Shown here: in pieces, positions 2,903 to 53,254 of the stretch
Numbering within the stretch: position 1 is the stretch's first letter
Layout of the letters: each line of letters starts with the position of its first letter
Origin: Glycomyces sp. TRM65418
GTDB lineage: Bacteria; Actinomycetota; Actinomycetes; Mycobacteriales; Micromonosporaceae
DNA length: 64,000 nucleotides
Reading direction: 5' to 3'
Assembly: GCF_019710475.1 (NCBI RefSeq)
Contig: NZ_JAJFAX010000007.1
Span: forward strand, 186,001-250,000
Notes under the pieces: generated by a model
Seen by the model: the letters and a program-made list of their open reading frames with translations, nothing else
Database searches by the model: none
Told to the model about the DNA's origin: nothing
Program-made: the position numbers and the translations under genes

Positions 2903-3889
2903 ATGGAAGGCATGCGCGCCGCCGAAACCGCCGCCGAACCCGTCACCGAGCCCGACCCCGCGCTCCCCGAGCCCGCCAGGGGCGCGGCCGAGCCCGCCGG
3001 CGCCCCTCACCCCCTCCCCGACCCCGGCGTGCTCGCCGAGCGGCTCCTCCCCTGGTTCGACGCCCACAACCGCACCGAACTCCCCTGGCGCCGGCCCGGC
3101 ACCACCGCCTGGGGCGTCCTCGTCTCCGAGGTCATGAGCCAGCAGACCCAGGTCGCCCGCGTCGCCCCCGTCTGGGAGGCCTGGATGGCGCGCTGGCCCG
3201 CCCCGGCCGACCTCGCCGACGCCCCGACCGCCGACGTCCTCCGCGCATGGGGCCGCATGGGCTACCCGAGGCGCGCCCTGCGCCTCCAGGAGTGCGCGCG
3301 GATCGTGGCGACCGAGCACGGCGGCGTCGTCCCCTCCGACCCGGCCGAGCTCGAACGGCTCCCCGGCATCGGCGTCTACACGGCCGCCGCCGTCGCGGTC
3401 TTCCACTACGGCGGGCGACACGCGGTCGTGGACACGAACGTGCGCCGCGTCGTCGCCCGGCTCGGCGGCCGCAGCGACGCCGGGAACGCCACCTCGAAGG
3501 CCGACCTGGCCGCCGCCGAGTCGCTCCTGCCCGGGGACGCCCCGACGGCGGCGCGGGTCTCCGTCGCGCTCATGGAGCTCGGCGCGCTGGTGTGCACGGC
3601 GCGCAAGCCCGAGTGCGGCGCCTGCCCCGTGAGCGACGTCTGCGGGTTCTCCGGCCAGGAGGTCCCGGCCGGGCCGAGCCGCAAGCGCCAGCGGTACAAG
3701 GGCACCAACCGGCACGTGCGCGGCGAGATCATGGCGCTGCTCAGGAACGCCGACGAACCGGTCGAGCGCGCCCGGATCGACGCCGTGTGGCCGGATGCGA
3801 GGATGCTCGACGAGGCCGTTTCGCAGCTCATCGCGGAAGGGCTGATCGGGACCGACGAATCGGGGCGATTCGAACTCCCGTCCCAGTGA
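2903..3889 (+). CDS. mutY: A/G-specific adenine glycosylase MutY
   Basis: Removes adenine mispaired with 8-oxoguanine in base excision repair. The catalytic domain has the expected glutamate (VSEVMSQQTQV, E about 76), the helix-hairpin-helix-GPD region (LERLPGIGVYTAAAV) and the catalytic aspartate in VVDTNVRR (about D177). The iron-sulfur cluster loop has the family spacing C-x6-C-x2-C-x5-C from about residue 231. The protein is 328 residues and lacks the long C-terminal 8-oxoG recognition domain of E. coli MutY, as is usual for the short actinobacterial form. The first 40 residues are Pro/Ala/Glu-rich, so the true start is uncertain: ATG 2903 and ATG 2912 are both possible and neither has a well-spaced ribosome site. 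Confidence 0.93.
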   Translation: MEGMRAAETAAEPVTEPDPALPEPARGAAEPAGAPHPLPDPGVLAERLLPWFDAHNRTELPWRRPGTTAWGVLVSEVMSQQTQVARVAPVWEAWMARWPAPADLADAPTADVLRAWGRMGYPRRALRLQECARIVATEHGGVVPSDPAELERLPGIGVYTAAAVAVFHYGGRHAVVDTNVRRVVARLGGRSDAGNATSKADLAAAESLLPGDAPTAARVSVALMELGALVCTARKPECGACPVSDVCGFSGQEVPAGPSRKRQRYKGTNRHVRGEIMALLRNADEPVERARIDAVWPDARMLDEAVSQLIAEGLIGTDESGRFELPSQ

Positions 3890-3890
3890 C

Positions 3891-3921
3891 AAATCCGCCG
3901 ACCGCTGGTAGCGTCGGATTT
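3891..3921 (+). terminator. Hairpin after mutY
   Basis: CAAATCCG at 3891-3898 pairs with CGGATTTG at 3914-3921 right after the mutY stop. There is no T-tract. A second small hairpin, CGCCGATT/AATCGGCG with loop CTCA, follows at 3948-3967. Confidence 0.5.
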
Positions 3922-4447
3922 GAGAGAACTTCACGATGCTCGGTCGGCGCCGATTCTCAAATCGGCGGCCCTGGGTCGAACCTCACTTCGTCAACAAGTG
4001 AGGCGCCGGAAGGACCGCGAGGTCCGACTCACCGCCGGTGCCAGGGCCGAAACGCCTACCGCAGGGCCGCCCCTGAGCGGCCGGCCAGGAACACGACGAC
4101 GCGGCTCGCGCCATCCACCGTCGCGTCGACCGCGGACCGGCCGCACGTCAAGCGGGCCATGCGGGAGCGGACGCCTTGAGCGACGGCCGCGACCGAGCAA
4201 CGGCAATGCCGTTCGGGTACCGCGCGCTCAGATCCGGGCGGCATTGCTACGCGTCTCCCCCCGGTTTCATCCGCACACCCCGACTGCACGGCCCCGTCGC
4301 CTGCCGGCCGCCTCCGAGTGGCACGGCCGCGGCGGGGCCCGTTTTCCGCCCCGCGCGAGCAGGTGGATCGCATCTACCGCGCCCGGTCGGGCGGGGTTCG
4401 GGACGGCATCCGCGAAGGCTGCGGACGAAGCGGGCGGGGAAGTCTTC
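3922..4447. other. Intergenic, no gene seen
   Basis: About 525 bases between mutY and the convergent PrsW gene. The open frames here are Arg/Pro/Gly-rich translations with no recognisable domain and no convincing ribosome site. Apart from the small hairpin at 3948-3967 I see nothing specific. Confidence 0.5.
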
Positions 4448-5314
4448 TCAAGCGGTCTCGGCGCTGCGGGCGACCGGGGCCTCTTCCCGCTTCGCCCAGC
4501 GGACCAGCCACCACACGATGAGCACCGCCGGCAGGCCCTTGATCATCACCCCGGCCAGCACGCCGAGCACCCCCAGCCCCAGGCCGTCCCGCAGCAGGGG
4601 CGAGTTCCACAGGGCGTGCAGGGCGATCACGCCCGCCAGGGATCCGGCCGCGATCCACACCGACCTGGCCGTCTTCCGCGTCGCCGCATACGCCACCCCG
4701 GCGCCGACGATCGCGGTGAAGACCGCGTGACTCCACAGTCCCGCGAGGACGCCGCGCACGATGAACACCGCGATCACCGGCTCGACCACGTCGCCGGCCC
4801 GGTTCACGACCGTGCTCGACATCGCGAAGGCGTAGCCCTCCACGATCTGGAAGCCCACCCCGCAGAACGCGCCCAGCACGATCCCGTCGAGCACGCCGTG
4901 GACGCGGCCCCACGCGATCGCGACCACCAGGACCACCCCGGCCGCCTTCACGACCTCCTCGACCACTGGGGCGGCCAGGACCGGCGACCAGCGCTCGGCC
5001 CACGCCGGCCCCCACATCGTGGCGAGCAGGCCGTGCAGGGCGCGGGAACCGAACAGGGAGGTCATCACCGCGACCGTCGCGCCCCAGAGGAGGCCGAGCG
5101 CGGGCGCGGCGGCGGGGAGCGCGAGCCGATCGGCGAGGCGGCGGCGCAGCCACCAGAACGGGAGGGCGAAGAGCGAGAACAGCACGAGCGCGGTCGTCCC
5201 GGCCCGGGGATAGGCGAGCGCGACGGGAAGCGTGTTGTACAGCAACAGGATCGCCGCGGCGCCGATGAGCAGCAGAGCCGTCCACTGCGTGGGCGACGCC
5301 GGGTCGGGGCGCAT
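4448..5314 (-). CDS. PrsW-family intramembrane metalloprotease
   Basis: A 288-residue, polytopic membrane protein with about eight hydrophobic segments. The PrsW signature residues are present: the paired glutamates in PVVEEVVKAAG (E119/E120), a further glutamate in GFQIVEGY (E159), a histidine in WSHAVFTAIVG (H196) and HALWN (H233). In Bacillus PrsW cleaves an anti-sigma factor within the membrane; many actinobacterial relatives have no known substrate. Its ATG overlaps the stop of the upstream gene (ATGA at 5312-5316), so the two are translationally coupled, and that small anchored protein could be a partner or substrate (inference). Confidence 0.88.
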   Translation of the reverse strand: MRPDPASPTQWTALLLIGAAAILLLYNTLPVALAYPRAGTTALVLFSLFALPFWWLRRRLADRLALPAAAPALGLLWGATVAVMTSLFGSRALHGLLATMWGPAWAERWSPVLAAPVVEEVVKAAGVVLVVAIAWGRVHGVLDGIVLGAFCGVGFQIVEGYAFAMSSTVVNRAGDVVEPVIAVFIVRGVLAGLWSHAVFTAIVGAGVAYAATRKTARSVWIAAGSLAGVIALHALWNSPLLRDGLGLGVLGVLAGVMIKGLPAVLIVWWLVRWAKREEAPVARSAETA

Positions 5315-5841
5315 CAGGCCGCCTCGAAGGACAACTGGGCTATGAGCGCGTCGATCCTGTCCACAGTGGCAGAGTCTAGCGAGGAACCCGTGGCGGTGAC
5401 CTCGGCACGGACGTCATCGTGGACGAAGGCGCACGCGAAGCCCGCCCCGGTCTCGGTGACGAAGCTGCGCCCCGCGCCTTGGACGCCGTCGGCGGCGCAG
5501 TCGCGCGGATCGGTGAGATGGACGCCCGGCTGGGCTTCGAGGAGGCGGGCCATCTCGTCGGCCAGGTACTCGGCGTCGAAGCCGTAGGGCCCGGCGACGA
5601 CGATGTCCACTTCGGCGTCGCCGACGAGGAACTCGACCCGCCCCGATTCGGGCTGGTAGTAGCCCGGGCGCATCCGGACCGCGGCAGGGGCGGTGAGGGT
5701 GACGCCTTGGAGCGTGAAGGTCTCGCCGCCGACGTCGACCGTGGGGGAGACGGCCTTGTTGAGGAGGGGGATGCCGAGCGCGAAGGCGAGCACCACTGCG
5801 GCGACCGCAATGGCGACGGTGAGGCTCCTCGTACGGGACAC
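5314..5841 (-). CDS. Membrane-anchored extracytoplasmic protein, coupled to PrsW gene
   Basis: A 175-residue protein with one N-terminal hydrophobic segment (about residues 8-26) that acts as a signal anchor, then a domain of about 145 residues with a single disulfide-sized pair of cysteines (DCAAD... and FACAF). No family recognised. The GTG start has only a weak GAAG upstream. Its stop overlaps the start of the PrsW-like gene by the ATGA arrangement, which implies joint expression. Confidence 0.75.
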   Translation of the reverse strand: MSRTRSLTVAIAVAAVVLAFALGIPLLNKAVSPTVDVGGETFTLQGVTLTAPAAVRMRPGYYQPESGRVEFLVGDAEVDIVVAGPYGFDAEYLADEMARLLEAQPGVHLTDPRDCAADGVQGAGRSFVTETGAGFACAFVHDDVRAEVTATGSSLDSATVDRIDALIAQLSFEAA

Positions 5842-45251: not shown

Positions 45252-46736
45252 ATGGAGCACACCGAAGAGGACACTGTGCCTCTGCACCGGACGGAGGCTT
45301 CAGGGTGGTCGCCGTTCGCGCCGCCAGGCGCGAACCACGAGCGCAGCGCGCCACCGGAAGTGAACGCCCAGTACAGCACCCCGGCGGACGCGGACCATGA
45401 GTCCGGCTCGCCCGAGGTGAACCGGCGGCACGGCGCCGCACCGGATGCGGACGCGCGGTTCGGCGCGCCCTCCGAGGCGAACCGGCGGCGCCACGCGCCT
45501 TCGGCAGTGCACCAGCAGCACAGCGCCCCTGAGGACGTGATGAACCAGCAGTACGGCCCCGGCGCCGATTCGATCCGCAACCCGCGCCAGGGCGACCACG
45601 TGCCGAGCACGCCGCCGCCGGTGGCGACGCCGATGCCGGGCTCCGAGCCCGCGCAGGAAGCGCCGACCTCCCGGTTCGAGACCCGCCCCGGCGGCGACGG
45701 CTGGCCCGTCCCGCCCGAGACCGCCCCGGCGGGCCGCCAGGTCGCCGTGCCCTCCCGCGTCCCGGTGCCGGTGTTCCCCGATCACGCCGGGGCGCTCGAG
45801 CGCATCGGCGTCACCGCCGACGACTTCTCCTCCCGCCGCGTCGTGCCGCCCCGCCCGCCCGTGGCCGAGACCGGCCTGCGCGGCGCGCTCCACCGCCTGA
45901 GCTTCGGCCTGGTCGCCCTGCCGCCCGGTCCACGCGAGCAGGCCCGGCAGCGCGCGGTGGAGACCGTGCGCCGCAACTTCGGCGGCCTGCGGCAGATCAC
46001 CGTCGTCAACCCCAAGGGCGGCGCGGGCAAGACCGTCGCGGTGCTCATGCTCGCCATGACCTTCGGCCGCCACCGCGGCGGCTACGTCCTCGCGTGGGAC
46101 AACAACGAGACGCAGGGGACCCTGGGGATGCGGGCCCAGCAGGACTTCCACGTGCGCACCGTGCGCGATCTGCTGCGGGACCTCGACCACTTCAAGGGCC
46201 CGACGGGTCGCATCGGGGACCTGTCGCAGTACGTGCGCGCGCAGGGCGGGGCGATGTTCGACGTGCTCGCCTCGGACGAGTCGGCCACGGCCGGGGAGAT
46301 GCTCACCTCGCAGGCGTTCGGCGACCTGCGGGAGGCCGTGTCCCGCTTCTACAAGCTCATCGTGGTCGACACGGGCAACAACGTGCGGGCGGCGAACTGG
46401 CAGGCGGCGATCGACGCGACCGACCAGCTGGTGGTGACGATGTCGGCCCGGAACGACTCGGCCGAGACGGCCGCGAGGATGCTCGACCACCTCGAGCAGA
46501 CCGGCAGGCGCGACCTGGTGCGCGGGGCGGTGTCGGTGGTGTCGATGCCCGCTCACCGCAAGGACGTGGACCTGCCCGCGGTGCAGCGGCACTTCGCGGC
46601 GCGCACGAGGGCGGTGCTGCTGGCGCCGTACGAGAAGCTGCTCGACTCGGGGGAGCCGATCCGCTACGACTCGTTGAGCAAGGCCTCGTCGGGGGCCTGG
46701 CTGCGGATCGCATCGGCGGTCGCCGAGGGCCTGTGA
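45252..46736 (+). CDS. ParA/MinD-like ATPase of the EspI group
   Basis: A 494-residue protein with a disordered N-terminal half and a ParA-like ATPase domain (about 245-494). Deviant Walker A NPKGGAGKT (253-261), VLAWDNNETQGTLG at the A' site and LIVVDTGNNVRAAN as Walker B. Residues about 25-100 are a degenerate tandem repeat of 11-16 residues around PxxNxxxxAP. This is the layout of EspI-like, ESX-associated ATPases of actinobacteria. ATG with GGGAGG 5 bases upstream. The last 73 bases overlap the 3' end of the TetR gene on the other strand. Confidence 0.82.
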   Translation: MEHTEEDTVPLHRTEASGWSPFAPPGANHERSAPPEVNAQYSTPADADHESGSPEVNRRHGAAPDADARFGAPSEANRRRHAPSAVHQQHSAPEDVMNQQYGPGADSIRNPRQGDHVPSTPPPVATPMPGSEPAQEAPTSRFETRPGGDGWPVPPETAPAGRQVAVPSRVPVPVFPDHAGALERIGVTADDFSSRRVVPPRPPVAETGLRGALHRLSFGLVALPPGPREQARQRAVETVRRNFGGLRQITVVNPKGGAGKTVAVLMLAMTFGRHRGGYVLAWDNNETQGTLGMRAQQDFHVRTVRDLLRDLDHFKGPTGRIGDLSQYVRAQGGAMFDVLASDESATAGEMLTSQAFGDLREAVSRFYKLIVVDTGNNVRAANWQAAIDATDQLVVTMSARNDSAETAARMLDHLEQTGRRDLVRGAVSVVSMPAHRKDVDLPAVQRHFAARTRAVLLAPYEKLLDSGEPIRYDSLSKASSGAWLRIASAVAEGL

Positions 46737-47332
46737 GCGGCGAGGAGCTCGACCAGGCCGGTCGCGGCGTCGGCCAGGCGGCGGTCGTCCTCGTCGGCGT
46801 GGCCGACGACGAGCGCGCCCTGGACGAACACGAGGGCGGTGCGGGCGAGCCGCTCGGGGTCGGCGGCGGCGTCCATCTCGCCGCGCTCGACCGCCCGTGC
46901 CAGGATCGCGGCGAGGTCGCGTTCGAGTTCGGTCCAGGCCTCCTGGACGCGGCGCATCGTGGCGGGGTCGTCGGCGAGCTCGACGGCGGCGCGCACGAGG
47001 AAGCCGCCCTCCTTCGAGTGGCGGATCACGACGTCGAGGAGGTCGCCCACCGCCCGGGGCGCGTCGAGGCGCTCGGCGGCGCCGTCGCCGCCCCGGTCGA
47101 GCGCGCGGTGCGCGATCGCACGCAGCTCGGGCTCGGTGTCCTCTCGGTAGCGGCCCAATGCCGTGATGTAGAGCTGGTGCTTGGAGCCGAATGCGGCGTA
47201 GAGCCCGGCGCGGTTCATGCCGGTGGCCGCGACGAGGTCCGACATGGAGGTCGCGGAGAACCCGCGCTCCAGGAAGACCCGTGTGGCGGCGCGCAGAACT
47301 CTGTCCAAATCGGCGTTCTTATTTCTGCTCAC
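46664..47332 (-). CDS. TetR-family transcriptional regulator
   Basis: A 222-residue TetR regulator. The N-terminal helix-turn-helix (about residues 12-52) reads LRAATRVFLERGFSATSMSDLVAATGMNRAGLYAAFGSK, shortened here to its ends: LRAATRVFLERGF and GLYAAFGSKHQLY. The ligand-binding half has the TetR_C pattern of regulators with LAALFAVERGEM-type helices (AILARAVERGEMD). It is divergent from the riboswitch-controlled B12 locus, so it may control it or itself. Start GTG 47332 is set by TACGGT 7 bases upstream with TTGACC 18 bases further up; a GTG at 47341 lies inside this promoter. Confidence 0.88.
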   Translation of the reverse strand: MSRNKNADLDRVLRAATRVFLERGFSATSMSDLVAATGMNRAGLYAAFGSKHQLYITALGRYREDTEPELRAIAHRALDRGGDGAAERLDAPRAVGDLLDVVIRHSKEGGFLVRAAVELADDPATMRRVQEAWTELERDLAAILARAVERGEMDAAADPERLARTALVFVQGALVVGHADEDDRRLADAATGLVELLAAHRPSATADAIRSQAPDEALLNES

Positions 47333-47339
47333 GTTGTGC

Positions 47340-47369
47340 ACCGTATCGACACCCGGCGCTACGGGTCAA
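47340..47369 (-). promoter_or_regulatory. tetR promoter, TTGACC-18-TACGGT
   Basis: On the minus strand TTGACC (47369-47364) and TACGGT (47345-47340) are separated by 18 bases. The -10 ends 7 bases before GTG 47332, so the mRNA is probably leaderless. Confidence 0.7.
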
Positions 47370-47385
47370 TAACCGGAAGGCGAGA

Positions 47386-47410
47386 GTTCACTCGCGAGAC
47401 GCGAGTGAAC
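47386..47410. promoter_or_regulatory. 25-bp palindrome, candidate TetR operator
   Basis: GTTCACTCGCG-AGA-CGCGAGTGAAC: 11-base perfect arms with a 3-base spacer. It lies 17 bases above the tetR -35 and 24 bases above the -35 of the B12 locus, so one dimer could influence both promoters. Confidence 0.75.
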
Positions 47411-47434
47411 GGCTGCACTGCGCGAGCGACCAGC

Positions 47435-47464
47435 TTGACACTCGGCGAAACCACCCGCGAGAAT
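47435..47464 (+). promoter_or_regulatory. Promoter of the B12 locus, TTGACA-18-GAGAAT
   Basis: TTGACA (47435-47440) and GAGAAT (47459-47464) with an 18-base spacer, directly before the cobalamin riboswitch. Confidence 0.65.
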
Positions 47465-47479
47465 GGGCCCAAACTGAAC

Positions 47480-47613
47480 AGGCGCCAGGCGGGGGAAGTC
47501 CGGTGAAAGGCCGGCGCTGACCCGCAACGGTAGTCGCGGTCGTCTCCGAACGACAGCCGAGCACCCTTCACGAGCTCGGTCCCCCGCGTGAGCCCGAATG
47601 CCCGCCGGTGCCG
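47480..47613 (+). ncRNA. Cobalamin riboswitch
   Basis: The conserved core is plain: GGGGAAGTCCGGTGAAAGG, then CCGGCGCTGACCCGCAACGGTA (47512-47532), the AGCCGAGCACCC region and the B12-box-like GAGCCCGAATGCCCGCC (about 47590-47606). Ends are estimated from flanking complementary GGCGCC/GGTGCC. A hairpin CGCCTGT/ACAGGCG at 47626-47647 follows and may be part of the expression platform; the mechanism (terminator or ribosome-site masking) is not clear. It should lower expression of the downstream locus when adenosylcobalamin or related forms are abundant. Confidence 0.92.
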
Positions 47614-47701
47614 CCCATCTGTCAACGCCTGTCGTGGTCTACAGGCGCTTGCGGCGCCGCCGCCTGCCCGAAGACCCACTCGCTCTAGGAAAGGTCAGGC
47701 A

Positions 47702-48919
47702 ATGCGCCACCTGTCCGGTCGACTGCTGGCCGCCGCCGCGGTCGTGCCCGTCACCGTCTTCGCCTCCGCCGCCCCTGCCGAGGCGCAGGACCCCTTCGCC
47801 CAGCCCGCCCACGCCGCGGCGTCCTGGCTCGTCGCCCAGTCCGACGGCACCTCGTGGAACGACGGGGACGTCTCGACCTCGCTGGAGGCGGTCATCGCGC
47901 TGGAGGCCGCCCGTGTCGGCGGCGACCACGTCCAGGCCACCCTCGAGTGGCTCAACGACACCGCCACCCTCACCCCGTACCTGTACCCGACGACGGAGGG
48001 CGCCGAGCCGACGCTCAGCGTGGGCGCGGCCGGGAAGGTCATGTTCACCGTCGCGACCGCCGGAGGCGACCCGACGAACTTCGGCGGGATCAAGCTCGCC
48101 GACGAGGTCACGGCCGCGCAGGCCGCGAACGGCACCTACGGCGACGGGACGGCCCTGTCCACTGCGTGGGCGGTGCTGGGCCTCTCGCGCACCGACCGCC
48201 CGGCGGGCGAGGAGGCCGCGTCCGGGTTCGCCGCGATCCAGTGCCCCGACGGCGGGTTCAACTTCATGGACGTCGACGGCGGCGACGACTGCGTCTCCGA
48301 CCCCGACACGACCGGGCTGGCCGCCTCGGCGCTGGCGACGCTCGACGGCGACGCCGCCGCGGCCTCGCTGACGGCGGCGGCGGACTGGCTGGAGTCGGCG
48401 CAGTCCGAGGACGGCGGCGTCGGCGGCGAGTACGGCGTCAACGCGAACTCGACGGCGATGGCCGCGCAGGCGTTCCTGGCCGCCGGCCGGGTCGACGCGG
48501 CCGAGCGCGCCGTGGCGTTCCTCCTCACGCTCCAGTTCGACTGCACCGGTGAAGTGCCGGGCGCGTTCAGGTACACCGACCCCGAGGGCGGGGACTTCGT
48601 GGAGGTCTCGCGCCTGCTGGCGACCGCGCAGGCGATGGTGCCGGTCGCGGGCCAGAACCTGGCGGAGTTGGACGCCACCGGCATCGAGGCCGGCGTGCCC
48701 GACAACGGCTGCGAGAGCGCCGTCGCCGGTGACGAGACCGCCGATGCTGTCGAGGACGACGGTTCGGCCGCGTGGCTGCCGTGGGTGATCGGCGCCGCCG
48801 TGGTGCTGCTGGCCGCGCTCATCATCGGCTTCGCGATGAAGCACCGCCGCAACGGCGGACCGTCCGCTGCGGACGGGTCCGGCGACGGCCGCGCGGACGA
48901 CGGCGCCGAGAAGCCGTAG
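47702..48919 (+). CDS. Surface alpha/alpha-barrel protein, intrinsic factor/transcobalamin alpha-domain-like
   Basis: A 405-residue protein: signal peptide (about 1-28, ending AEAQD), an extracytoplasmic domain of about 300 residues built from repeated helical hairpins (LSTAWAVLGL, DPDTTGLAASALATL, NANSTAMAAQAFLAAG) and a C-terminal membrane helix (WVIGAAVVLLAALIIGFAM) with a basic tail. Helical repeats of this kind occur in squalene-cyclase/prenyltransferase-fold proteins; the NxxSTxxAxQAL and DTTxLAxxAL patterns are also those of the alpha6/alpha6 barrel of intrinsic factor and transcobalamin. The riboswitch directly upstream makes cobalamin binding the best guess. ATG 47702 with AGGAAAGG upstream. 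Confidence 0.85.
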   Translation: MRHLSGRLLAAAAVVPVTVFASAAPAEAQDPFAQPAHAAASWLVAQSDGTSWNDGDVSTSLEAVIALEAARVGGDHVQATLEWLNDTATLTPYLYPTTEGAEPTLSVGAAGKVMFTVATAGGDPTNFGGIKLADEVTAAQAANGTYGDGTALSTAWAVLGLSRTDRPAGEEAASGFAAIQCPDGGFNFMDVDGGDDCVSDPDTTGLAASALATLDGDAAAASLTAAADWLESAQSEDGGVGGEYGVNANSTAMAAQAFLAAGRVDAAERAVAFLLTLQFDCTGEVPGAFRYTDPEGGDFVEVSRLLATAQAMVPVAGQNLAELDATGIEAGVPDNGCESAVAGDETADAVEDDGSAAWLPWVIGAAVVLLAALIIGFAMKHRRNGGPSAADGSGDGRADDGAEKP

Positions 48920-48960
48920 CGGCACGAGCAGCGAGCACGTGTTCCGCAGTGAACGAAGCG

Positions 48961-48995
48961 CAGGCGGCGCCCGCCCCACCGGCGGGCGCCGCCTG
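48961..48995 (+). other. Intercistronic 15-bp perfect hairpin
   Basis: CAGGCGGCGCCCGCC (48961-48975) and GGCGGGCGCCGCCTG (48981-48995) pair perfectly with a CCACC loop, 42 bases after the stop at 48919. It has no T-tract. It may reduce read-through into the downstream transporter genes or protect the upstream message. Confidence 0.8.
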
Positions 48996-49004
48996 CGCGC
49001 TGCC

Positions 49005-49631
49005 GTGCCCGGCTCCGGGGCGCGGCGTTCGGCGCTCGCCGCGGCCCGGTCGGCCCTGCTCGGGGGCCGCGCCGCCTGGACGGCGCTCCTGGTCGCCGCG
49101 CTCGCGGCGTTCGCGCCCGTCGCGCCCGCCGCCGCGAAGGACCCCTGCACCGGCGTCACCGTCGTGGTCGACTTCGGGACGCTCGCCGCCGAGCCCGCCA
49201 CCGGATGCGCCGCCGATCCCGAGAACGGCCTCGACGCGCTCGTGCAGGCCGGATTCTCCGTGACCGAGGTGGTCTCCATCCGCGGCATGGTCTGCCGGAT
49301 CGACGAGCTCCCCGAGATCGAGTGCGGCACCGCGCCGCCCGCCCTGAATTACTGGTCGTACTGGCGCGCCGACGCCGACGACGCCGAATGGACCTACTCC
49401 GCGGTCGGCGGCGGCGACGCCCGCCCCGAGGCGGGCGACGTCGAGGGCTGGGCCCTCGGCGACGGCTCGAGCCCGCCCGCGCTCACGCCGGCCGAAGCCG
49501 CCGCCTCCTCCAGTGCCGCCGAACCCGAAGCGGCGCAAGAGCGCTCCTTCACCTGGCTCATCGCCGTCGCCGCGCTCCTCGTCATCGCCGTGCTCGTGGT
49601 CTGGCGGCTCCGGCGCGACCGGCGCGCGTGA
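49005..49631 (+). CDS. DUF4430 membrane-anchored protein, transcobalamin beta-domain-like
   Basis: A 208-residue protein: signal peptide (hydrophobic about 24-44, ending APAAAKD), a domain of about 110 residues with NGLDALVQAGFSV and then YWSYWRAD...EWTYSAVGGG...GDVEGWALG, the mark of DUF4430, the domain that forms the C-terminal beta part of transcobalamin and intrinsic factor, and a C-terminal membrane helix. The start is uncertain: GTG 48939 would place the strong hairpin inside the coding sequence and give a very long n-region, so GTG 49005 is preferred; neither has a clear ribosome site. The stop overlaps the next start (GTGA). Confidence 0.85.
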   Translation: MPGSGARRSALAAARSALLGGRAAWTALLVAALAAFAPVAPAAAKDPCTGVTVVVDFGTLAAEPATGCAADPENGLDALVQAGFSVTEVVSIRGMVCRIDELPEIECGTAPPALNYWSYWRADADDAEWTYSAVGGGDARPEAGDVEGWALGDGSSPPALTPAEAAASSSAAEPEAAQERSFTWLIAVAALLVIAVLVVWRLRRDRRA

Positions 49632-50764
49632 CCGGGCGCGCCGCGATGCGAACGACGAAGCCGCCGCCCGAGGCCCGGGCCGCCGCGAACCGGCGCGCCG
49701 CCGCCCACCCGGTGGCCTGGTGGGGCTGGGCGCTGCTCCTCGCCACCGCCGCCGGCGGCACCGGGAACCCCTGGGTCCTCCTGCTCATCGTCGCCGTCGC
49801 CGGGCTCGTGGTCACGTGGTGCCGCGGCGACGAACCCTGGTCCGGCGCCTACCGGGTCTTCCTCTACATCGGACTCGGCGCGGTCGCCGTCCGCATGGCC
49901 TTCTACATCGTCTTCGGCGGAGCCGACGGCCCCACCGTCCTCCTCACCCTGCCCTCGGTCACGCTCCCGGACTGGGCGGCGGGCTTCCGGCTCGGCGGGA
50001 ACGTCACCGCCGAGGGCACGCTCGCCGCCGCCTACGACGGCCTGCGCCTGGCGACCCTCCTGGTCTGCATCGGCGCGGCCAACGCGCTCGCGAGCCCGCG
50101 CCGGCTGCTGCGCTCGGTCCCGGCCGCGCTCTACGAAGTGAGCGTCGCGGTCGTCGTCGCCCTGTCCGTCGCCCCCCAGCTGGTCGAGAGCGTCGGGCGG
50201 GTCCGCCGGGCGCGGGCGCTGCGTGGCAACACGAGCCGCAGCCCCGCGAACCTCATGCGCACGGTCGTCTCACCGGTCCTCCACGACGCGCTCGAACGCT
50301 CCCTCGCGCTCGCCGCGGCCATGGCCTCCCGCGGGTACGGCCGCGCCGCCGACGTCCCCGCCCCGGCCCGTCGCGCCACCAACGCGTTCCTCCTCACCGG
50401 ACTGGTCGGGCTGTGCGCGGGCGCGTACGCGCTCCTCGGCGCCGCCACCCCCGCGCCGCTCGCGTGGACCGTGGTCGCCTGCGGGGCCGCCGCCGCCGTC
50501 TTCGGGATCACCTTCGCCTCCAAGCGGGTCCCGCACACCCGCTACCGGCCCGACCGCTTCGGCCCGCGGGACTGGGCGGTGGTCGCCGCCGGTGCGGCGG
50601 CCGTCGCCGGGACCGTCCTCAGCGGCGTCTTCGAGCCGTCCGCGCTGTGGCCGGCCACGAACCCGCTGTCCGTCCCCGACCTGCCGCTGTGGGCCGCGGC
50701 CGGCGTGGTCATCGCCGCCGCCCCGGCCCTGCTCGCGCCGTCCTCACGAGGGGGAACACCATGA
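49628..50764 (+). CDS. ECF transporter transmembrane subunit EcfT
   Basis: A 378-residue membrane protein with about six to eight hydrophobic segments. The two coupling helices with Ala-Arg-Gly type motifs are visible: RRARALRGN and AAAMASRGYGRA. These contact the ATPases in all ECF transporters. The long N-terminal stretch (about 1-25) is basic. GTG start overlaps the stop of the DUF4430 gene; an ATG at 49646 is possible. Confidence 0.88.
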   Translation: MTGRAAMRTTKPPPEARAAANRRAAAHPVAWWGWALLLATAAGGTGNPWVLLLIVAVAGLVVTWCRGDEPWSGAYRVFLYIGLGAVAVRMAFYIVFGGADGPTVLLTLPSVTLPDWAAGFRLGGNVTAEGTLAAAYDGLRLATLLVCIGAANALASPRRLLRSVPAALYEVSVAVVVALSVAPQLVESVGRVRRARALRGNTSRSPANLMRTVVSPVLHDALERSLALAAAMASRGYGRAADVPAPARRATNAFLLTGLVGLCAGAYALLGAATPAPLAWTVVACGAAAAVFGITFASKRVPHTRYRPDRFGPRDWAVVAAGAAAVAGTVLSGVFEPSALWPATNPLSVPDLPLWAAAGVVIAAAPALLAPSSRGGTP

Positions 50765-52431
50765 CCGGGATCGTCTTCGACCGCGTCGCCTTCGCCTACG
50801 AGGGCACGCCGGTCCTCGACGACGTGTCCTTCGACCTGCCCGAAGGGGAGTTCTGCCTGCTCGTGGGCCCGACGGGCGCGGGCAAGTCGACGCTCCTCAA
50901 ATCGGTCAACGGCCTCGTCCCCCACTTCACCGGCGGCACGATGCGCGGGCGCATCGCCGTGGCCGGGCGCGAGGTGCGCGGGTCCACGCCCGCCGACCTG
51001 GCCGACGTCGTCGGCTACGTCGGCCAGGACCCGCTCGCGGGGTTCGTCACCGACGAGGTCGAGCGCGAACTCGCCTACACCGCCGAGCAGCTCGGCGTCG
51101 ACCCCGCCGCGATGCGCAAGCGCGTCAGTGAGATCGTGGACCTCCTCGGCCTCGCCGACGTGCGCGACCGCGACCTCGCCGCGCTCTCCTCGGGCCAGCG
51201 CCAGCGGGTCGCCATCGGCGCGGCCCTCGTCGCCGGGCCCGCCGCGCTCGTCCTCGACGAGCCGACCTCCGCGCTCGACCCGACCGCCGCCGACGAGGTG
51301 CTCTCGGCGCTGCACCGCCTCGTCCACGATCTCGGCGTCACGGTCCTGCTCGCGGAGCACCGGCTCGAACGCGTCGCGCAGTACGCCGATTCGGCGCTGC
51401 TGCTCCACGGCGGCACGGTGACCGCCGGACCGGTCGGCGAGGTCCTGGCCGCGTCGCCGATCGCCCCGCCGGTGGTCGAGCTGGGCCGCCTGGCCGGATG
51501 GCCGGGCCCGCCGGTGACGATCCGCGAGGCGCGACGCCACGCGGCCGGGCTGCGCGAAGCGCTGGCCGGGCGCCGCCCGGAACCGCCGCCCGCCCACGGT
51601 GCGGCGGTCACCGCACCGGGCCGCCGCAAGCGCGCGACCGCCGACGCCGAGCCGCCGCTGCTCGACGCCCGGGACGTCCACGTCCGCTATCCCGGCGGCG
51701 TGCGGGCCGTGAACGGCGTCGACCTGGTCGCCGCCCGGTGCGAACGCATCGCCCTCATGGGCCGCAACGGGTCCGGCAAGTCGAGCCTGCTGTGGGCCTT
51801 GCAGGGCACCGGGAAGCGCTCGAGCGGGCAGGTCGCGATCGGCGGCGCCGACCCCGCGGCGCGCAAGCCGGCCGAGCGCCGCCAGCTCGCCGGCCTCGTC
51901 CCGGCCGAGCCGGCCGATCTGCTGTACGCCGAGACCGTCGCAGACGAGTGCGAGGGCGCGGACGACGACGGGCGCGCGCCGCGGGGCACCTGCGCGAAGA
52001 TCCTCGCCGACCTGGTGGAGGGGGTCGACGGGTCGGCGCACCCGCGCGACCTCTCCGAGGGTCAGCGGCTGGCGTTGGCGCTGGCCGTGACCCTCACGGC
52101 CGCACCCCCGCTGCTGCTGCTCGACGAGCCGACGCGGGGCCTGGACTATCCGGCGAAGGCGGCGCTCGCGGCGCGGCTGGGCAGGCTCGCCGAGGCCGGG
52201 CACTGCGTGGTCGTGTCGACCCATGACGTGGAGTTCTGCGCCGAGTTCGCGACCCGGGTGGTGGTCCTCTCCGACGGCGAGGTGGTCGCGGACGGCCCGG
52301 CCCGGCAGATCGTCGCGGCGTCGCCGATGTTCGCCCCGCAGGTCGAGAAGGTCCTGCCGGGCTGGCTCACCGTCGGGGAAGTGGCGGCGGCCTTGAACGG
52401 GAACGGAACCGGCGATGACCCGGACGACTGA
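50761..52431 (+). CDS. ECF transporter fused ATPase EcfA-EcfA'
   Basis: A 556-residue tandem ABC ATPase. First domain: Walker A GPTGAGKST (36-44), Q-loop VGQDP, signature LSSGQRQRV, Walker B LVLDEPTSALDP, switch LAEHRLE. Second domain: Walker A GRNGSGKSS (about 335-343), signature LSEGQRLAL, Walker B LLLDEPTRGLD, switch STHDVEF. The loop GLVPAEPADLLYAETV is degenerate compared with the first half. Two-in-one EcfA is normal for actinobacterial ECF systems. ATG overlaps the ecfT stop (ATGA). Confidence 0.92.
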   Translation: MTGIVFDRVAFAYEGTPVLDDVSFDLPEGEFCLLVGPTGAGKSTLLKSVNGLVPHFTGGTMRGRIAVAGREVRGSTPADLADVVGYVGQDPLAGFVTDEVERELAYTAEQLGVDPAAMRKRVSEIVDLLGLADVRDRDLAALSSGQRQRVAIGAALVAGPAALVLDEPTSALDPTAADEVLSALHRLVHDLGVTVLLAEHRLERVAQYADSALLLHGGTVTAGPVGEVLAASPIAPPVVELGRLAGWPGPPVTIREARRHAAGLREALAGRRPEPPPAHGAAVTAPGRRKRATADAEPPLLDARDVHVRYPGGVRAVNGVDLVAARCERIALMGRNGSGKSSLLWALQGTGKRSSGQVAIGGADPAARKPAERRQLAGLVPAEPADLLYAETVADECEGADDDGRAPRGTCAKILADLVEGVDGSAHPRDLSEGQRLALALAVTLTAAPPLLLLDEPTRGLDYPAKAALAARLGRLAEAGHCVVVSTHDVEFCAEFATRVVVLSDGEVVADGPARQIVAASPMFAPQVEKVLPGWLTVGEVAAALNGNGTGDDPDD

Positions 52432-53254
52432 GCCGCGATCGACCGGGCCGGAGCCGGTCGAGGCGGTCGCGTCGGCGCCGCGACCGGCCGTGCGCTGGAG
52501 GGCCGCGGTGGCGCTCGCGCTGGCCGCGGGGTTCGGGCTCGTCGCGATGTCCTGGCCGCTGCTGGCGGCGCCGGGCGGGGCGCTGACCGAGACCACTTCG
52601 GGCCCTTGGCTGTTCGCGCTGCTGCTGCCGCTGGTGACGGCGACGGCGGTCATCCAGCTCACCGAGGGCGGGCTGGACGCGCGGGCGGTCGCGATGCTCG
52701 GCGTCCTGTCGGCGGTGGTGGCGGCGGTCCGCCCGTTCGGCGCGGGCGCGGCGGGCGTGGAGACGGTGTTCTTCCTGATCATCCTGGCGGGCCGGGTGTT
52801 CGGGCCGGGATTCGGGTTCATCCTGGGCTGCACGGGCCTGTTCGCCTCGGCGCTGCTGACGGGCGGAGTCGGCCCGTGGCTGCCGTACCAGATGCTCGCG
52901 TCGGCGTTCGTGGGCCTGGGCGCGGGGCTCCTGCCGGGGACCGCCGCGGGCACCCGCGCGGGCCGGGCCGGAGAGCTGGCGTTGCTCGCGGTCTACGCGG
53001 CCTGCTCGTCGATCCTGTACGGGCTGCTGATGAACCTGTCGTTCTGGCCGTTCGCGTTCACGCAGGGGAACCTCGCCTATGTGCCGGGCGGCGGGCTGGA
53101 GGAGAACCTGTCGCGGCTGCTCGCCTACTCGTTCGTGACCTCGCTGGGTTGGGACGTCGGCCGGGCGGTGACCACCGTGGTGCTGGTCCTGCTCACGGGT
53201 CCGCTGCTGCTGCGGGTGCTGCGGCGGGCCGCGAGGAAGGCGAACTGGGTCTGA
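52415..53254 (+). CDS. ECF transporter substrate-binding S component, probable cobalamin type
   Basis: A 279-residue membrane protein with about six helices, the size of S components of the CbrT class. Conserved features include the PFGAGAAGVETVFFLIILAGR stretch split here into PFGAGAAG and FFLIILAGRVFGPGFGF, with helices and loops consistent with the fold. No ligand residue can be read off; the cobalamin assignment rests on the riboswitch and the transcobalamin-like proteins in the same operon. Overlaps the end of the ATPase gene by 17 bases. Confidence 0.8.
   Translation: MTRTTEPRSTGPEPVEAVASAPRPAVRWRAAVALALAAGFGLVAMSWPLLAAPGGALTETTSGPWLFALLLPLVTATAVIQLTEGGLDARAVAMLGVLSAVVAAVRPFGAGAAGVETVFFLIILAGRVFGPGFGFILGCTGLFASALLTGGVGPWLPYQMLASAFVGLGAGLLPGTAAGTRAGRAGELALLAVYAACSSILYGLLMNLSFWPFAFTQGNLAYVPGGGLEENLSRLLAYSFVTSLGWDVGRAVTTVVLVLLTGPLLLRVLRRAARKANWV

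Follow-up and report, generated by a model that had tools for sequence, protein, structure and literature searches.

A cobalamin-riboswitch operon of Glycomyces that joins a toroid and beta-grasp protein pair to an ECF transporter probably encodes a B12 uptake system

We analyzed a 64,000-nucleotide stretch of DNA (the window) from the soil bacterium Glycomyces sp. TRM65418, in which an operon behind a cobalamin riboswitch spans positions 47463-53254 of the + strand. The riboswitch is followed by genes for a toroid protein (TOR), a beta-grasp protein (SLBB) and the EcfT, EcfAA' and S-component subunits of an energy-coupling factor (ECF) transporter (Table 1). It is probable that this operon encodes a cobalamin-repressed uptake system for B12 (or a corrinoid), with ligand capture by TOR and SLBB at the cell surface and hand-off to the S component. 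Low cellular adenosylcobalamin (AdoCbl) would relieve the riboswitch and allow expression, and TOR and SLBB would be exported and remain tethered on the outside of the membrane. We infer that the pair, like the two domains of transcobalamin and intrinsic factor, would close around B12 as its ligand, clamping it between the toroid mouth and the beta-grasp hairpin, and would pass it to the S component, with EcfT and EcfAA' powering import. The control element, the secretion and anchoring signals, the very strong association of TOR and SLBB with S and the fusions in relatives are evident at the level of sequence.

The order of the operon is preserved in all genus members examined and in other families, and the arrangement is thus not a product of chance. 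SLBB, EcfT, EcfAA' and S are joined by overlaps of GTGA, ATGA and 17 bases. EcfT scores above its family cutoff and EcfAA' contains two ECF-type ATPases, as in an ECF transporter, with the S component below the cutoff of its own family. TOR has a hydrophobic N terminus (residues 4-26) and a C-terminal anchor (residues 354-381; helix 359-382 in the AlphaFold2 (AF2) model), SLBB has hydrophobic segments at residues 39-67 and 201-226 that correspond to a signal peptide and a C-terminal anchor, and in both proteins a basic tail lies behind the C-terminal transmembrane segment. A prediction made earlier from the letters of the window (the original prediction) had described the same series of riboswitch, two anchored signal-peptide proteins, EcfT, fused EcfAA' and S component, together with the overlaps; our Rfam, Pfam and segment checks and the sequence itself confirm it.

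We examined the control element with Rfam. Scanned at the gathering threshold, the window gave no match; the riboswitch appeared in E-value mode, with 29.2 bits (E 9.7e-6) against a gathering score of 31.5. RF00174 also matches at the equivalent position in all 16 relatives tested, other genera included, ten of them exceed gathering, and the core is conserved. We thus take the window element as a true cobalamin riboswitch despite its score, in agreement with what had been predicted. When the core is built into a covariance model (R1), a riboswitch is located ahead of the operon in 61 of the 65 loci with at least 5 kb of DNA upstream of S; some of these loci had served to train the model, and it is therefore the Rfam result that provides an independent line of evidence. 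Between the aptamer and the start codon lies a nearly invariant element, in which a hairpin (CGCCTGT...ACAGGCG) precedes a GC-rich stem and which is a candidate expression platform. The free folding energy of the leader showed nothing unusual. The start codon after the element is ATG in some genus members and TTG in others. Elsewhere in the same genome, RF00174 is found ahead of metE and at the cobalamin-synthesis region.

We next asked how closely the parts of the operon travel together. Loci were fetched by the S component alone, yielding at least 546 relatives, of which 80, all from Actinomycetota, were kept; the 65 with enough upstream DNA were used for counts. SLBB is encoded in 62 of these and TOR in 57, and 54 combine TOR, SLBB and the riboswitch. 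In an even sample of the phylum comprising 297 genomes, the S component occurs in 95. SLBB is present in 44 genomes, every one of which has S (within 10 kb in 39). The toroid hidden Markov model was built on trimmed domains free of fused proteins. TOR, counted by its stronger matches, occurs in 83 genomes, 71 with S and 60 with S within 10 kb. The Fisher p value for co-occurrence is <1e-25, a statistic that ignores the kinship of the genomes. The proposed co-occurrence of the pair with riboswitches and CbrT-like S genes thus held for the pair, the riboswitch and the S component, the last of which is not CbrT-like by sequence. When eight genomes with no clear TOR in the operon were searched as a whole, a strong TOR was found elsewhere in six. 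Four of these unlinked copies (L160, L161, L163 and L164, in the genomes of L097, L079, L058 and L080) carry a cobalamin riboswitch of their own; TOR therefore follows B12 regulation even away from the transporter.

TOR and SLBB are separate genes in Glycomyces, Lentzea and Janibacter, and the window thus differs from the single toroid-first chain of transcobalamin and intrinsic factor. A single chain with the toroid first is found in one relative only (L060), and the reverse order in L091, L104, L069, L114 and a Crossiella fusion. Streptomyces, Kitasatospora and Crossiella have an SLBB-TOR-TOR chain and a second SLBB, and L064 has SLBB-TOR-TOR-TOR. That the domains are found fused either way round points to their cooperation, and with the gene pairing and the co-regulation of unlinked copies it bears out the idea that a toroid and a DUF4430-type partner form a unit. 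Actinobacterial groups that are more distantly related encode a canonical DUF4430 protein ahead of EcfT-EcfA-S and TOR behind S, which ties the Glycomyces-type system to DUF4430 proteins. Near ECF genes of distant actinobacteria there are also open reading frames of >1500 aa with several DUF4430 domains (L149 in G067, L151 in G094).

In one S-component clade of six loci (Table 1) TOR and SLBB alike are circular permutants; the transporter is retained and five of the loci have the riboswitch. One permuted pair is that of Streptomyces sp. JH14. The permuted toroid runs through profile columns about 105-290 and then 2-106, the beta-grasp domain through columns about 66-107 and then 13-66. Upon rotating the toroids back, a continuous profile match was regained in four of the six, with scores rising from 104.6 to 142.0, 116.0 to 172.1, 102.3 to 165.9 and 116.2 to 181.5 bits; rotation of canonical toroids breaks up their match. 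For the beta-grasp domain, two or three of the six show the rotation clearly, and in the others it can be seen by eye.

We compared TOR and SLBB to proteins of known structure. TOR contains repeats of the terpene cyclase/prenyltransferase type, as found in transcobalamin and intrinsic factor. An AF2 model of the window protein is a toroid (pLDDT 85, pTM 0.77), for which Foldseek against the PDB returns transcobalamin and haptocorrin with TM about 0.45 (bovine transcobalamin 2bb6, E 1.9e-4; 8ixt, 2.4e-4; haptocorrin 4kki, 3.2e-4). The alpha6/alpha6 toroid of the transcobalamin/intrinsic factor family is thus present in the model, as a fold that terpene cyclases match too. The original prediction is upheld as to the toroid and weakened as to its resemblance to intrinsic factor, since TOR is at least equally close to terpene cyclases. 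In Streptomyces loci, a divergent gene (L062:2-1621, - strand, and its equivalents) encodes a distant TOR domain and has no Pfam match; a separate, weakly matching cobalamin riboswitch lies next to it.

SLBB had been assigned to DUF4430. Pfam DUF4430 (PF14478, gathering 23.8 bits) matches neither the window SLBB nor any of 48 relatives, and a DUF4430 match was seen in one of 14 SLBB sequences (E 0.0087). Aligned with hhalign, SLBB and canonical actinobacterial DUF4430 are co-linear, with E about 8e-5 and a score of 33.8; none of 40 column-shuffled controls scores above 20.8, and the reversed profile scores 13.9. Profile-profile comparison, by which alone the kinship becomes visible, thus indicates that SLBB is homologous to DUF4430, and in this weaker sense the assignment stands. 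Profile searches of the PDB with SLBB gave noise only, and the NCBIfam SCO2322 family (NF040672) matches the window SLBB partially, at 31.4 bits with a threshold of 85. We also modeled a homologue, the Crossiella SLBB-TOR fusion L084 (AF2, pLDDT 81, pTM 0.68). Its SLBB part has the order strand-strand-helix-hairpin-strand-strand, which is also that described for the transcobalamin-like SLBB clade (PMC1796856). Human transcobalamin 2v3n is among the matches of the fusion model (E 2.9e-5), presumably via the toroid, since the domain order differs between the two proteins.

Several observations weigh against a B12 uptake system of this kind. The S component weakly resembles FolT models and matches no solved S component: its profile (A2), searched against solved structures at E values up to 1, matched none, CbrT (6FNP) included, and the predicted CbrT-like S component is therefore not borne out by sequence. 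Two SLBB operons (L076 and L093) have no clear TOR anywhere in their genomes by whole-genome search. The host encodes CbiC, an enzyme of corrin-ring synthesis (E 1.6e-54), and CobQ- and CobD-like open reading frames lie nearby by eye; with at least one corrin-ring synthesis gene the host is likely a prototroph, for which B12 uptake would be a supplement or salvage route. Finally, in Foldseek TOR is as similar or more similar to AprG and to class II terpene cyclases, squalene-hopene cyclase among them, than to the B12 carriers, and among the 60 matches listed for its sequence profile squalene-hopene and drimenyl diphosphate cyclases are closest (E about 1e-40) and transcobalamin is absent. TOR might accordingly be an extracytoplasmic enzyme resembling a terpene cyclase or prenyltransferase, with SLBB as an accessory and a purely regulatory link to B12. 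We rejected TOR as an enzyme because the cyclase DxDD motif is not preserved, being reduced to DxD[T/S/A/G]; the signal peptide and anchor that place TOR outside the cell, the riboswitch that accompanies it far from the transporter and its fusion to a DUF4430-type domain in either order further make this explanation very improbable.

The same pair and transporter might carry a cargo other than B12 itself, namely cobalt or a compound that precedes or resembles B12 (cobinamide, another cobamide or a lower-ligand base). EcfT scores as CbiQ, a cobalt-transport family, and the corrin-ring synthesis gene in the genome would fit a precursor or cobalt. Cobalt ECF systems, however, use CbiM/CbiN and not the S family of the Glycomyces operon, and CbiM/CbiN are not encoded there. 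Cobalt and precursor transporters are also found under cobalamin riboswitches (PMC3766115), and CbrT takes up cobinamide as well (PMC5997447), yet in animals it is intact cobalamin that a toroid paired with a beta-grasp domain binds, and we consider another cargo unlikely. It is less likely still that TOR and SLBB bind B12 at the surface without involvement of this ECF transporter, whether they store it at the wall, feed BtuFCD or act in some other way. Pairs unlinked from the transporter (L097/L160), extra TOR and SLBB copies and a Peripla_BP_2 protein behind a cobalamin riboswitch near the L086 operon would be in line with such a role, whereas the tight overlaps, the near-universal linkage to EcfT-EcfAA'-S and the presence of S in all 44 genomes with SLBB speak for joint action. 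B12 (or corrinoid) uptake by the operon as a whole is thus the reading that we favor. A more far-reaching version of it, which we offer tentatively and would not be surprised to see fail, is that Actinomycetota possess a two-chain, membrane-tethered transcobalamin that closes only around B12 and docks on a dedicated S component, that the ECF importer depends on this extracellular pair, and that one clade permuted both halves and kept the system.

Table 1. Features of the operon and related loci (window positions, or locus:positions where a locus is named)
Feature	Position	Strand	Evidence or remark
TetR gene	46664-47341	-	divergent; end of upstream neighbourhood
Cobalamin (AdoCbl) riboswitch aptamer	47463-47623	+	RF00174, 29.2 bits; RF00174 matches in relatives
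Conserved riboswitch core GGGAAGTCCGGTGAAAGGCCGGCGCTGACCCGCAACGGTA	47493-47532	+	invariant core in relatives
Element of ~50 nt from aptamer to start codon	47621-47671	+	near-invariant in 7 genus members
TOR, secreted alpha/alpha toroid protein, 405 aa	47702-48919	+	profile, AF2 model, hydrophobic segments
SLBB, secreted anchored beta-grasp protein	48939-49631; alternative in-frame GTG start 49005	+	profile comparison, hydrophobic segments
EcfT, CbiQ-type transmembrane coupling subunit	49628-50764	+	PF02361 34.7 bits, cutoff 25
EcfAA', fused EcfA-EcfA' double ATPase	50761-52431	+	two ABC domains
S component, substrate-binding membrane subunit	52415-53254	+	ECF_trnsprt PF12822 28.7 bits, cutoff 30.7
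Permuted TOR and SLBB pairs	L096:3974-5701; L112:3939-5758; L113:4081-5813; L122:3852-5794; L126 about 3549-5700; L127 about 3264-5640		
metE/nrdA neighbours	L158:9834-12146; L101:11744-14059; L107:9375-11921; L121:9898-12297; L085:1-1032; L109:10857-13472		

In several loci the operon adjoins metE (cobalamin-independent methionine synthase) or an nrdA-type ribonucleotide reductase gene, mostly behind cobalamin riboswitches. These neighbours, with the riboswitch-controlled periplasmic binding protein near L086 as a third kind, support the B12 uptake reading. Riboswitch-like matches at L098:9421-9481 and L121:12649-12709 precede, by eye, a methylmalonate-semialdehyde dehydrogenase-like gene, an arrangement reported for S. 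griseus (PMC8914203).

The idea of surface capture is not new. Burroughs, Balaji, Iyer and Aravind defined a transcobalamin-like SLBB clade in 2007, noted its signal peptides and anchors, found toroids fused before or after SLBB and a CbiO-like ATPase and CbiQ-like permease co-encoded, predicted that these proteins scavenge B12, mainly in Firmicutes, and proposed that they were transferred to animals (PMC1796856). The central idea of the original prediction is therefore an independent rediscovery; its riboswitch control, toroid/DUF4430-type unit, outside anchoring and ECF link stand, its intrinsic-factor-like toroid is less specific than claimed, and CbrT as S component is not supported by sequence. 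The Glycomyces operon shares the domain types, signal peptides and anchors, ECF-type partners and predicted B12 scavenging of the 2007 systems. Those belong mainly to low-GC Gram positives that usually lack key B12 biosynthesis enzymes, whereas Glycomyces is an actinomycete with a B12-synthesis gene, separate TOR and SLBB genes, an SLBB below Pfam DUF4430 detection and an explicit cobalamin riboswitch. As far as we found, it is the separately encoded, riboswitch-controlled form in Actinomycetota, its wide spread, the unlinked co-regulated copies and the doubly permuted clade that are new. Annotations in RegPrecise and SEED name CbrTUV and, for a predicted cobalamin ECF transporter, an additional lipoprotein component, and may already group such genes. 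In Streptomyces, the SCO2322 family and its 'prenyltransferase/squalene oxidase repeat' neighbours form the same operon and are annotated without a function or a stated B12 role; in the accessible literature, with subscription papers outside the search, we found no paper connecting SCO2322-type proteins (SCO2321-2324) with B12. If our reading is correct, it would provide a function for families labelled in this way or as 'hypothetical' in Streptomyces and many Actinomycetota, and would show how ECF importers can gain a surface capture step.

CbrT, the characterised B12 S component, binds B12 alone with nanomolar affinity (PMC5997447). ECF-CbrT (CbrUVT) and the Glycomyces system share the ECF import module and, as we propose, the cargo; the latter has an S component not detectably related to CbrT by sequence and two extra surface proteins. 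BtuG of Bacteroides, a beta-propeller lipoprotein, is from an unrelated protein family and resides at the outer membrane, where it feeds BtuB. It likewise combines surface-exposed B12 capture with delivery to an importer (PMC6143338). Transcobalamin, intrinsic factor and haptocorrin of animals have in common with TOR and SLBB the alpha/alpha toroid and its beta-grasp partner, secretion, the predicted sandwiching of B12 and the fold match of TOR. The animal carriers are single soluble chains, whereas Glycomyces has two membrane-anchored proteins of remote sequence similarity, which could serve as tractable bacterial counterparts for the 2007 idea that animal B12 carriers derive from Gram-positive bacteria.

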